Assembly (NCBI RefSeq): GCF_037975245.1
Contig: NC_092569.1
Location: forward strand, 30,634,668 to 30,698,667
Source of the DNA: Apostichopus japonicus
Lineage: Eukaryota > Echinodermata > Holothuroidea > Aspidochirotida > Stichopodidae
Reading direction: 5' to 3'
Length of the DNA: 64,000 bases
The notes below the pieces were generated by a model. That model searched no databases. It worked only from the letters and a program-made list of their open reading frames with translations, and was not told the origin of the DNA. Every line of letters begins with the position of its first letter. Within the stretch, counting starts at the first letter, position 1. Below, piece after piece: positions 3,813 through 36,882 of this stretch. The position numbers and the translations under genes were made by a program.

Positions 3813-4256
3813 TTAGACTGAACGAATTTTCATTGTTGTTCTTCTGATACCGCAATCAGAACCGCGAAGATTACCGCGGTAATCGTTGGACGAGTAATCA
3901 CCATTCAGATTGGAGTAGCCGCAGGAATAGAAAGTTGTGTCATAAACCGGGTTTTTGTTTCGGCAGCATTTACAATTATTGCGGACATCATAATTATCGC
4001 ATTTGTAATGGAAACGATCATCATAATTCCAGCAATTAGCAAAATAATACCAGGTACAGTCAGTGTAGTCATAGCTATCTGTAGCTACGCGGTTGCTGAA
4101 TGATTAGCAGTTGCTGGTAGAGCCCGTAATACTATCGTCTGGATACCACCAGCCACCTCGGTGTTTTTTCTGCGCAATCGAAGGTACTCGATCCATCATT
4201 GTCTTGATCGTGCGTACTAAATCGATGTCCTGTATTTGCGCCCATAGCGTTATAAC
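3813..4256 (-). pseudogene. Gene 1 exon 9: C-terminal FReD exon with Cys/Tyr-rich insertion, disrupted
   Basis: The exon contains the calcium-site region ([19 protein letters not shown]), GGWWY, a long insertion, then [11 protein letters not shown] and the C-terminus MKIRSV followed by TAA. An extra A in the run coding for EK (6 T on the plus strand near 4170-4175, against 5 in gene 2) shifts the frame. In the restored phase a TAA replaces a tyrosine codon after SNC. Both lesions are absent from gene 2. Confidence 0.85.
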
Positions 4257-5403
4257 CTGGAAGGAAATAAGCATATACTTAATGAAGTTATAATTTTGTC
4301 AAGTCTTGTTATTTGCATACTGGACGTTATTAAACCACCGTGGGTTGGTTTGCTGTAATTGTCGGTTGCCAGTGCGTTTGTTGCTGTGTTAGTTCCTGTT
4401 TAGTCTTGACTACGAATTTCAAGGTTTCATATATAAGTTCTTGAGCTTTCATTTCGCAGTTTCTTATTTAAAGATAGGTCTCAATTTCTAGTTTTTCTGG
4501 AGAGGTTCCAATGTTGACGATTTGTTTGGAAACCACTTCATACATCGTTTGTTATAAAATAATACATAGGCCTGTTTGATACAAATAGTAAACTTATAGG
4601 TACTCTTTCACTTTTGCGACGAATACAATATAGTAAAGCGTTTAGATGGTAATTGTGTCATGAGTAGAAATGCTAACAGCTAATTCTTTGAAGTAGTCAA
4701 TTTCTGCAAAACGAAATGTATAGTTTTTATTTTTAAACTACTATGTTTTCAAATAAGAGGGAAAATATTTTAAGTGTTGGATTTTCTCATCTTTGTCACC
4801 ACCATCCATCGTGAAACATTTGATCTTTCATATGACGTTTTACATCCATTTGATAACGACACAGTAATGAGATAACTACATTCTGATTATAGATTCTTAC
4901 ATATAAGAAAGAGGGCATGTATTGCTCTTAGGAAATGTAACAAATGCGATTTTTCTCGACCCTTCTCTCAAAAAAAAAAAAAACCTCAGAAATAGTTTTT
5001 TTTATTTTTTATTATCATTGTAATATTATAGGCCTATTATTAATTCCATGAACGAATATTCAATGGTATAATGAAACTTAATTTGCTTCTCTTTTATAAA
5101 CGCTAAAGTCATATTTAATGAAATTTGTAGTTTCCCAGGCTATTCAATTTGCCTTTCTTTTCTAAGATTGACAAAGCCTGAATAAAAGTGCAAGGTTGAT
5201 ATGATATATAAACAAAAGGTACGAGACTGTAGGCACGAGGTTTAGTACATACATTAGTAACTGCACTATATTTGTAACATGACCTGAGTATGTGTACCAG
5301 TACAAATCTTATATTGTGATTACGACTACAGGTAGTTATGCTAGAATGATATTACGTAATAACTACAAGTCTGCGTATGATTGACATTTAGCACAATACA
5401 TAC

Positions 5404-35400: not shown

Positions 35401-36882
35401 TCTTTATGTTTACGTTTTTTTTCAAAATGCATTTCAAAATATCTTAATGCCTTGTTCCAGACTGTTTTCCAACATTGCTACATCAATAATGATAAATTTT
35501 AAAGTGATATCGATGAGCATGTGAAGGAAGTAAATATTTAGGTGCTCCCTGAGAAAATTTAAAGCTGCAAATTTCGCATTTGGATGATAGTTTGCAGAAA
35601 TATTATCAAGTTTAAAACTGAGCATTGTTTCAAATTTGATAAAGTTGAATCGGACCTACCACCCTTTGAAGTATATATCTTATTTAAAGGATATACCTTA
35701 TCATTATAGTTTTGTTTACAGTAGTTACCCAACTGTTGACTATTTGTATTTGAAGTAAATTGAAGCATCTTTCTGATTGGATTATGACATAGAAATATTT
35801 TGTTGTTAGATTAGTCAACGCAGATGTTGCTTTGATGGATTCATAATGATAACTTCGACGAATACAAGCACTAACGAGCCTGTTTGGAAATCATATCAAA
35901 ATAACAGAGCTGACAAAGAAATTTGCCTTTAAACAAATGGGAATCAAGTTATTCTTTGTATTATTAACAAAAAACATTAGAAACACATTACCATACAAAA
36001 AGTAGCGACTGTCGCTCTGTATCAATAGGGAATCCTATGTCTGGATATTTAATAAGAACATACATTTTCACTTATGAATCTATACATAACTGGATTTTAT
36101 AGTTTACCTTTTAGTTATCGCTGAAAAGATTGAATTTCAAAGTGTTAGTTATTGTACTTGTAGCCAAAATTATGGAACATGAATTTATAAACTTGATTAA
36201 TCTACTTGTTAATTAAGTTCAATAATTGATGAAATGAAGGAGTTTTGTAACGTGTTGATATGTACCTCAGAAAGGTGGGCTTGGCTATTAGAGGGTAACC
36301 TTGTTCACTGATGTGCTGTAAAGGATATGTGGAGAGCGATATACTCATAGTTTGAAAAGAGAATACTTTTTCCTGGCCATATCACGCAACCTGATTGACT
36401 TTTATTAGTTGGTGTGTAACAAAATTCGTTTAAGATGTATATATGAATGAGGTTTTCTTCTTAGTATTTTACATGTGAGCAAATATGAGAGAATACTTTA
36501 TTTAGGCATAGAAAAACCAATTGATCTAATTTAGTTTTTTTCCAGTATGTGTGGTTCAATTAAAGACGTGTTGTTATATGTCGAAACATTGTTGTTCTTT
36601 CGCAAGGTTAAAAATTCTAAGTATTTTAAATTGAAGGCCTTTAAAACTGAACTTCATCAGGTATTTTTTATCGATGTTTTCCTATTTAATGGAAAAAGTT
36701 TTTACTTCAGTTTGTCACATCATTTAATATAACCAGAGTTACCTCAGCAACACAACTTATATTATTTTCGAAACAGTGGTAAAATATTTAAAAAATTAAA
36801 TAATAGAAAGACTTACCCTTTCTGTTCCAAACGAGTTGCAAATCGTCAAAACAGTCAAAGAAACTTTGAAAAGCGTTTCCAT
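22920..36882 (-). CDS. Gene 2: FReD(half)-TIL-EGF(3)-FReD secreted protein gene
   Basis: Ten exons on the minus strand join in consistent phase: 36817-36882, 30232-30262, 29454-29626, 28606-28870, 27567-27778, 26886-27095, 26094-26303, 25214-25513, 24699-24960 and 22920-23401. The frame is open for 657 codons, then meets one TAA (23159-23157) in the last exon. Without it the protein would be 736 residues ending in MKIRPSQ. Predicted layout: signal peptide 1-22; half FReD about 34-179; TIL about 182-249; EGF-like 250-319, 320-389 and 390-437; FReD 438 to the end. The protein would be secreted; FReD proteins commonly bind carbohydrates or act in innate immunity, so a lectin-like role is plausible but not shown. 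The stop could be a real truncation, an allele or a sequence error. The first FReD lacks its C-terminal half by design, since the exon phases still fit. Confidence 0.85.
24699..24960 (-). CDS. Gene 2 exon 9: middle of second FReD
   Basis: The 262-bp exon encodes [47 protein letters not shown] and YNGNAG. It ends in phase 1 at GCTG|GTATGT. It is intact here, in contrast to gene 1 exon 8. Confidence 0.92.
25214..25513 (-). CDS. Gene 2 exon 8: EGF-like module 3 plus start of second FReD
   Basis: The 300-bp phase-0 exon encodes an EGF module ([28 protein letters not shown]). It continues with [27 protein letters not shown] and SSGGWT, the start of a FReD. Donor is ACA|GTAAGT. Confidence 0.9.
26094..26303 (-). 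CDS. Gene 2 exon 7: EGF-like module 2
   Basis: The 210-bp phase-0 exon is a tandem copy of exon 6 ([15 protein letters not shown] start, [28 protein letters not shown], tail [12 protein letters not shown]). Donor is AAG|GTCAGT. Acceptor is the same ATTAG context. Confidence 0.8.
26886..27095 (-). CDS. Gene 2 exon 6: EGF-like module 1
   Basis: The 210-bp phase-0 exon encodes [31 protein letters not shown] and NYHGDGETC. This is an EGF-like cysteine pattern with a GDG loop. It starts after ATTAG at 27097-27096 and ends AGG|GTCAGT. Confidence 0.85.
27213..27303 (-). pseudogene. Relic EGF exon in intron 5 of gene 2
   Basis: The text from AATTAG through ACGTCAATTCAAGATGTACA to CGAGTTACCAGTG matches the 5' half of exon 6, then stops abruptly. 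The 3' half and donor are missing, so it cannot be a functional exon. Confidence 0.75.
27567..27778 (-). CDS. Gene 2 exon 5: TIL cysteine-rich module
   Basis: The 212-bp exon (phase 1 to 0) encodes [20 protein letters not shown], then [17 protein letters not shown] and [11 protein letters not shown]. The cysteine spacing matches TIL modules. Acceptor is TTCTCTAG, donor AGG|GTCAGT. Confidence 0.85.
28606..28870 (-). CDS. Gene 2 exon 4: middle of first fibrinogen-related domain
   Basis: The 265-bp exon encodes [34 protein letters not shown] and [10 protein letters not shown], the FReD core. It ends in phase 1 at GATG|GTAAGT and is followed by the TIL exon, so this FReD lacks the calcium site and binding-pocket half. 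Confidence 0.92.
28983..29213. repeat. Two (TA)n tracts in intron 3 of gene 2
   Basis: TA repeats at 28984-29134 and 29147-29212. The first is bounded by inverted copies AAATTAGAACTTA (28973-28985) and TAAGTTCTAATTT (29134-29146), giving a near-perfect palindrome of about 170 bp. Confidence 0.9.
29454..29626 (-). CDS. Gene 2 exon 3: start of first fibrinogen-related domain
   Basis: The 173-bp exon encodes [34 protein letters not shown] and GGWT. Acceptor is TTTCATCCAG and donor ACG|GTATGC. It aligns residue for residue with gene 1 exon 3. Confidence 0.92.
30232..30262 (-). CDS. Gene 2 exon 2: 31-bp microexon
   Basis: Acceptor TTACACAG, 31 bases, donor CAG|GTAGGT. It is phase 0 to 1 and encodes [10 protein letters not shown]. 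It has the same length and phase as the microexon of gene 1 but a different sequence. Confidence 0.72.
30940..31030 (+). repeat. Degenerate hammerhead-like repeat in intron 1 of gene 2
   Basis: GCCT (30976-30979) could pair with AGGC (31011-31014). Between them are TTGAAGA (CUGANGA with C changed to T), a 5-bp stem GATCC/GGATC, and GAA. The first A of the stem III pair is mutated. It shares flanking text with 9300-9365 and the same extra A after the first box as the 1642-1680 motif. Confidence 0.5.
33330..33385 (+). other. G-rich stretch, possible G-quadruplex
   Basis: The text has runs of G spaced by 1-3 bases (GTGGGAGGGAGGGAGGGATGG, then GGGAGAGTGTGGGTGGGG). Four GGG runs lie within about 20 bp, matching the usual quadruplex pattern. 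Function is unknown. Confidence 0.6.
33723..33795. repeat. (TA)n microsatellite, interrupted
   Basis: TA tract from 33723 to about 33766, interrupted by CATTTATTTATAAA, then a shorter TA tract to 33795. Confidence 0.9.
36817..36882 (-). CDS. Gene 2 exon 1: signal peptide
   Basis: The ATG at 36882-36880 begins [19 protein letters not shown], a secretory signal with hydrophobic core and a small-residue end. It closes in phase 0 at AGG|GTAAGT. About 30-40 bp upstream on the minus strand there is an AATATATTTT stretch that could serve as a TATA-like element (weak). Confidence 0.75.

Follow-up and report, generated by a model that had tools for sequence, protein, structure and literature searches.

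Animals without antibodies diversify their immune proteins. In the source text available, the SpTransformer (Sp185/333) proteins of sea urchins form a clustered, diversified echinoderm immune family, and in this they resemble the genes described here; they are, however, unrelated and have no fibrinogen-related domain (FReD). In the sea cucumber Apostichopus japonicus, the FREPs are given as the most expanded family, mainly clustered on one linkage group, in the accessible part of one report (PMC5638244). We analyzed a stretch of 64,000 nucleotides from this species (hereafter the window; positions 30634668-30698667 of contig C9, in a genome of 671.6 Mb in 35 contigs). Two tandem genes, A and B, both on the minus strand, encode half of a FReD, a TIL domain, TILa/EGF units and then a complete FReD, whose last exon is interrupted by a large Cys- and Tyr-rich insert, here called the knob. 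The initial annotation was right that two such genes are present, but both are damaged, and they belong to a very large family whose copies share one chromosome.

Like the A. japonicus FREPs, these are FReD proteins, and the listed places that match their TIL exon, second half-FReD exon and insert-bearing exon lie almost wholly on C9. Unlike them, they have a half-FReD/TIL/EGF/FReD order and a knob, neither of which is described in the accessible text of PMC5638244, the comparison being one of descriptions only. The FREPs and FReMs of Biomphalaria also join a FReD to EGF (FReM) or to other N-terminal modules. Their main architectures, in the part of the source available, are FReD alone, EGF plus FReD, one or two immunoglobulin superfamily (IgSF) domains plus FReD, and one with PAN/Apple (PMC7588048), with no TIL and no second FReD, whereas Pfam matched no IgSF domain in gene B or in g9, an intact copy described below. 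Nor is there an FN3 match in these two copies, unlike tenascins, where EGF and then FN3 precede the FReD. TIL-TILa modules occur in VWF, FCGBP and mucin-like proteins, and here too TILa directly follows TIL. Unlike in those proteins, VWD is absent from the Pfam matches of the copies scanned, and the TIL exon, with nine Cys in genes A and B, scores below the Pfam cut-off, which also sets it apart from the TIL protease inhibitors. FReD proteins, TIL, EGF and FREP expansions are already known. In the literature consulted, mostly as titles and abstract openings and with sparse coverage of subscription journals, we found no description of a half-FReD/TIL/TILa-EGF/FReD order or of a FReD whose ligand site carries a hypervariable Cys/Tyr knob.

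A hybrid FReD order repeated along contig C9

In genes A and B the exons run in the order FReD exon a (F1a), FReD exon b (F1b), TIL, TILa/EGF, EGF together with exon a of the second FReD (EGF/F2a), and exons b and c of the second FReD (F2b and F2c). The splice sites are GT-AG and the phases match in both genes, in agreement with the initial annotation, in which the first FReD stopped after its second exon and was followed in phase by TIL and EGF exons. No FReD exon c belonging to the half-FReD was found by tblastn between F1b and TIL, in the window or in the flanking copies. Because genes A and B are damaged, a functional protein is not provable from these two alone.

A tblastn survey of the window plus 200 kb of flanking DNA (264 kb in all) gave eleven copies, all on the minus strand. 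In nine of them, F1a, F1b, TIL, EGF/F2a, F2b and F2c follow one another in this order. Copies have between one and three TILa/EGF units, and splice sites are conserved for most array exons, the exceptions being in g3 and g7. One copy, g9, which lies ~77 kb past gene B at window coordinates 124893-113775, has an uninterrupted frame of 601 amino acids from Met to stop in eight exons, with 35 Cys. Among the nine ordered copies, gA, gB and g3 have stops or a frameshift in F2c. Elsewhere, g8 has a stop in the leader, g2 has stops in an EGF exon, g7 has a non-GT donor, and the frame of g10 is open only when a damaged phase 0-0 EGF exon is skipped. Copy g11 shows no lesion among its identified exons, its second exon not being located. 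Only the start of F2c is present in g1. For g6 (L016; window coordinates 66138-73335, outside the window), tblastn found no match to F1 or TIL; this copy retains a leader exon of the gene A type and the 3' FReD.

Across the genome, a search with the TIL exon found 149 places on C9 and one on C20 among the matches listed (150 of 504 candidates), and the listed matches to F1b (150 of 1197 candidates) were all on C9. At least 131 of the 149 listed C9 TIL places are preceded on their own strand by an F1b-like exon no more than 4 kb away, at a median of 1041 bp, compared with a mean of 3.2 and a maximum of 14 over 200 random shifts of the TIL list. The count is a lower bound for that list because gene A of the window, which has F1b, sits among the 18 misses. 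With an insert-bearing F2c as query, the matches listed (150 of 1530 candidates) include at least 79 places that have the insert, every one of them on C9, and 8 flank-only matches; at least 48 of these 87 places have TIL within 9 kb upstream, counting the TIL places among the matches listed. A diverged gene at C9:10.99 Mb keeps the same module order with 53-65% identity for the F1, TIL, EGF/F2a and F2b exons. Together with the genome-wide F1b-TIL linkage, this gene indicates that the layout is old and maintained. That the hybrid layout is real, as had been proposed, is thus borne out by the intact paralog, by the half-FReD exon upstream of TIL and by the diverged gene.

The Pfam matches of gene B are three stretches of Fibrinogen_C, EGF_3 and TILa. 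Fibrinogen_C is above the cut-off at 3.2e-86 in gene B and 5.5e-83 in g9; in the latter (also three stretches) EGF_3 is above and TILa below the cut-off. What had been called EGF exons do contain EGF, but are actually TILa plus EGF. TIL scores below its cut-off of 24.5 bits throughout, with 20.5 and 15.9 in the two window genes and 22.7 in a third scored copy. Two of these three cover the full-length model; it is complete in gene B and covered from position 11 to 55 of 55 in gene A. The first FReD lacks a complete P subdomain in the three copies in which its end point was measured: against the 221 positions of the Pfam model, it spans 2-124 in g9 (A type) and 2-123 in the diverged gene, and F1b of gene B ends at 124. 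The number of Cys in F1a is three, and so odd, in eight of ten array copies and in the diverged gene. The F1 exons are constrained, with ratios of nonsynonymous to synonymous substitution rates (dN/dS) of 0.20 and 0.27 in nine copies. The family also suggests that a FReD which ends with its second exon may be retained as a module.

Exons, damage and mosaic halves of genes A and B

The exons of the two genes are as follows, each in 5' to 3' order of the gene.

36817..36882, minus strand: gene B exon 1, Met plus a hydrophobic leader (22 residues); ATG at 36882, GTAAGT donor; 5 matching places in 264 kb
29454..29626, minus strand: gene B F1a, half-FReD exon a, 173 bp
28606..28870, minus strand: gene B F1b, half-FReD exon b, 265 bp; Pfam match ends at 124/221
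27567..27778, minus strand: gene B TIL exon, 212 bp; complete TIL model, below cut-off
26886..27095, minus strand: gene B TILa/EGF exon, 210 bp, phase 0-0 (Pfam)
26094..26303, minus strand: gene B further TILa/EGF exon, 210 bp, phase 0-0
25214..25513, minus strand: gene B TILa/EGF plus second FReD exon a, 300 bp (Pfam)
24699..24960, minus strand: gene B F2b, second FReD exon b, 262 bp
22920..23401, minus strand: gene B F2c, second FReD exon c bearing the knob; in-frame TAA at 23159-23157
23049..23288, minus strand: gene B knob, Cys/Tyr-rich insert of 80 residues between WWY and SCGYSNLNG
18125..18196, minus strand: gene A exon 1, Met plus a hydrophobic leader (MAELRSKCIFVFAVLLLLNSNGFR); 7 matching places in 264 kb, one with a stop
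9726..9756, minus strand: gene A exon of 31 bp, kept with its splice sites in 6 A-type copies
8678..8850, minus strand: gene A F1a, half-FReD exon a, 173 bp
8010..8274, minus strand: gene A F1b, half-FReD exon b, 265 bp
7501..7709, minus strand: gene A TIL exon, 209 bp; Pfam positions 11-55 of 55
6449..6659, minus strand: gene A TILa/EGF exon with a frameshift
5898..6197, minus strand: gene A TILa/EGF plus second FReD exon a, 300 bp
5404..5665, minus strand: gene A F2b, second FReD exon b, 262 bp, with a stop codon
3813..4256, minus strand: gene A F2c, second FReD exon c, with a frameshift and a stop; knob at ~4142-3927

The leader exons are hydrophobic and conserved among the copies in the 264 kb, and constitute a putative secretion signal. 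Gene A is interrupted four times, by a frameshift in the EGF exon, by a stop in F2b and, in F2c, by a second frameshift and a second stop; gene B has a single stop, inside the F2c insert. Of the exon lengths said to be identical in the two genes, those of 173, 265, 300 and 262 bp are so, whereas the 31-bp exon is supported in gene A only; no such exon with comparable splice sites was found in gene B.

There are two 5' types of gene, A and B. When four A-B pairs are compared from the start to TIL, only a segment of ~90 bp upstream of F1a aligns (three of the four pairs), plus exon F1b in one pair, and the 5' exons of genes A and B share 40-67% protein identity. From the TIL-EGF intron to the 3' end, introns included, the A-B pairs share ~68-90% DNA identity. 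Within the B type (gB and g11), identity is 96-98% over more than 9 kb in the 5' half and 88.7% in the 3' half; within the A type (g10 and g8), it is 77-91% and 71-84%. By these pairwise identities, the 5' half is conserved within each type and the 3' half is common to both, with a breakpoint adjoining TIL. Given the dissimilar 5' introns and the similar 3' halves, the 5' cassettes are paralogs of long standing, with the 3' halves exchanged or shared at a later time. The claim that the layout predates the duplication of the two genes is therefore half right, the genes being mosaics.

The TILa/EGF exons of gene B are repeated together with flanking intron sequence (25214-27300, minus strand), and a truncated remnant lies at 27296-27205, so the number of EGF units seems to increase by local duplication. 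A long TA dinucleotide array occupies 28984-29213, within the F1a-F1b intron of gene B; others are at 1801-2016 and 1228-1338. The long intron of gene A holds an open reading frame (10397-11206, minus strand) resembling what we take to be a non-LTR retrotransposon reverse transcriptase, and the frames at 45999-48094 and 53540-56903 are reverse-transcriptase-like and Pao/BEL-like, presumably from retroelements. No Rfam match was found in the window. As for the genetic code, COX1 on C35 reads Asn at AAA, Ile at ATA and Ser at AGA (table 9), the echinoderm code, common to flatworms; the COX1 contexts used for this codon reading are presumably conserved. Beside this full-length match, a second, broken set of COX1 matches lies on C29 (C29:14745-31219; L089), perhaps a duplicated or misassembled mitochondrial contig.

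The knob at the ligand site of the terminal FReD

The second FReD had been annotated as full, and it is indeed a complete domain, but the large insert in its c exon had been overlooked. The terminal FReD aligns to ficolin-1 (E 8.8e-42) and, as in FIBCD1, ficolins and tachylectin 5A, it keeps the DND motif and the equivalents of both Cys. In FIBCD1, the Cys401-Cys414 disulfide connects the Ca site with the acetyl site, and the acetyl group is bound by the cis peptide between Asn413 and Cys414 and by two NH groups, that of His415 and the backbone NH of Cys414, according to the text available (PMC3908420). In the alignment, the insert sits between the equivalents of Tyr411 and Cys414, the region at which related lectins bind sugars, reading WWY, insert, SCGYSNLNG. 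The equivalents of Cys401 and Cys414 are present in 55/55 copies and the DND motif in 54/55 aligned copies, and their pairing and Ca binding are predicted. The two Cys are separated by 12 residues in FIBCD1 and by about 81-115 here, the insert plus ten preceding residues.

In open F2c exons, the knob is 71-105 residues long with 7-13 Cys. A conserved frame of Cys, nearly invariant in position, holds two loops of variable length (7-42 and 5-19) rich in Tyr and Cys, and Cys, Tyr, Asn and Asp make up 40-55% of the knob in nine array copies. The commonest Tyr and Cys codons are TAT (731) and TGT (376). Shorter forms of the insert are found at the same point in TIL-bearing or related genes on C9. 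Four loci have Tyr-rich inserts of 22-24 residues. At 29-35 Mb, seven of ten loci (L090-L094, L097 and L099) form an intermediate class of head domains, in which the insert is again rich in Tyr, measures 26-33 residues and contains three or four Cys, the total of Cys in the exon being even in six of the seven; the other three loci gave no complete reading. Among other FReDs, the normal two-residue spacing without insert is seen in 5/5 with a readable P subdomain (eight loci examined).

To describe variability, 55 F2c exons were fetched from places outside the 264 kb without a stop in the match, and 49 of these are open from flank to flank. Added to the array copies with an open F2c (g2, g7, g8, g9, g10 and g11), they form a set that also numbers 55, in which 54 of the 55 copies have distinct knobs. 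The mean amino acid identity in this set is 89.9% before the insert, 65.1% inside it and 84.3% after it. The dN/dS is 0.67 and 0.72 for the loops, and 0.16 and 0.22 for the FReD flanks. Total Cys in F2c is even in 44/55, whereas the counts of 13 other residues are even in 22-34 of 55; this count leaves out gA, which has a frameshift, and the six fetched exons whose frame is not open. In seven array copies, nucleotide identity is 75.8% in the knob, 76.1% in the neighboring intron and 88-91% in F2b and the exon flanks of the knob. Over all pairs of these copies, indels are multiples of three in 38/38 cases in the knob and in 81/378 in the adjacent intron.

An unspliced intron was considered as the identity of the knob and judged unlikely, the 38 pairwise indels all being in frame and 49 of the 55 fetched copies being open. 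A known domain was also rejected, with no match in Pfam for three knobs and none in the PDB for a profile built from 11 knobs. The knobs of bovine ultralong heavy-chain complementarity-determining region 3 (CDR H3) are likewise rich in Cys and Tyr with a variable Cys pattern. In bovine heavy chains with shorter CDR H3, an even Cys number is found in 84%, as given in the accessible text (PMC7366855); the even-Cys bias here is 44/55 (45/58 with three further array copies), counted over paralogs that are not independent. The bovine loops differ in having an immunoglobulin scaffold and somatic diversification, in place of a FReD scaffold and separate germline genes, and no immunoglobulin match was found in Pfam for gene B, g9 and three knobs. 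The parallel is one of analogy, not homology.

Explanations of the knob family

Building on the architecture, the array and its copy number, the position and variability of the knob and the mosaic structure, all read directly from the DNA, we lean towards a large tandem family of secreted recognition proteins, diversified in the germline, with expression and binding as the inferred part. The leader would direct secretion. The half-FReD, which comprises the A and B subdomains without the P subdomain and mostly has an odd Cys number in F1a (the whole of g9 having 35), may link chains, and TIL with one to three TILa/EGF units would form a disulfide-rich stalk. The terminal FReD would be the recognition head, contacting its target by the knob. 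Here, the short Cys401-Cys414 loop beside the acetyl/Ca site would have been replaced by a loop that holds the knob; disulfide pairing within the knob, ligand binding and an immune role are all plausible on this reading. The genes would have spread by duplication and by recombination between the TIL and EGF exons. The knob is where the paralogs are least alike, so this one chromosome bears a germline repertoire of putative binding tips set on a more constant scaffold.

Several observations weigh against such a family of recognition proteins. In the 264 kb, only g9 is demonstrated to be intact throughout, while g2, g3, gA, gB, g7, g8 and g10 have a lesion or an odd splice site, and a stop falls within the match at 13 or more of the 79 listed places with an insert. 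The residue after the Cys414 equivalent is Gly in 55/55, unlike His415 of FIBCD1, so acetyl binding may be lost. The dN/dS of the loops is below 1, and positive selection is therefore not shown by this measure. The choice of stop-free or open exons biases the in-frame and parity counts, although gB, with its stop, is included in the indel comparison. The paralogs are not independent, so that pairwise indel counts repeat shared events. Of three array copies outside the parity set, gB (stop) and g6 (partial) are odd and g3 (stops) is even, which brings the sum to 45/58. Relaxed constraint on slippage-prone TAT/TGT codons would give a similar picture.

This last point leads to replication slippage in runs of Tyr and Cys codons, in a duplicated array under relaxed constraint and without selection for diversity. 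The intron-like rate of the knob, the loop dN/dS of 0.67-0.72, the predominance of TAT and TGT and the stop that arose in the knob of gene B all fit this explanation, yet the nearly invariant Cys frame, the 38/38 in-frame indels, the even-Cys bias and the 49/55 open fetched exons (picked, however, for lack of stops) do not, and we regard it as unlikely. Similar doubt attaches to adhesive or matrix proteins of mucus, body wall or defensive threads, in which Tyr and Cys would serve cross-linking and loop variation would be tolerated rather than selected. TIL and EGF domains are mentioned for flatworm and limpet adhesive secretions in the source text available, and the residue composition of the knob would suit such a role; against this, the insert is at the ligand site of the FReD and not in a repeat region, and in our judgement it is not obvious that a structural role would need 79 or more insert-bearing places or an even-Cys bias.

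Clustered, rapidly varying domains of secreted type would also fit gamete or allorecognition proteins, a single variable family for recognition of species or self. In our judgement, however, the copy number (149 of 150 listed TIL places on C9) exceeds what is expected for gamete pairs, and the relatives in print, as far as the available texts go, are immune or regenerative; we consider this very unlikely. Finally, the lesions in both window copies might indicate a reading error, with exons of two genes joined by eye and the half-FReD a leftover of a broken gene. The misjoining of two separate genes is ruled out by the continuous frame of g9, by the F1b-TIL order at 131/149 listed places and by the diverged gene, which keeps the whole order at 53-65% identity. 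Most array exons also retain their splice sites (exceptions g3 and g7) and the F1 exons are constrained, and we give almost no credence to a reading error of any such kind.

Within the recognition-protein explanation, we propose more tentatively, and at a little less than an even judgement, that the knob is a germline counterpart of antibody knob domains. The ligand-site loop of the fibrinogen lectin fold would have lengthened step by step (about 2, 22-24, 26-33 and 71-105 residues) to become a hypervariable paratope locked by disulfides; duplication would have multiplied it, and recombination would have joined it to constant 5' cassettes of two kinds. If this is true, a Cys-rich hypervariable knob inserted where a FReD binds its ligand, at no fewer than 79 places in one genome (at least 13 of them with stops), would show that recognition repertoires can arise by a structural route not known before, one that parallels the antibodies of cattle in nature. 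Whether the FREPs of sea cucumbers, whose expansion has so far been tied in print to regeneration, serve for recognition would then also become a testable question.

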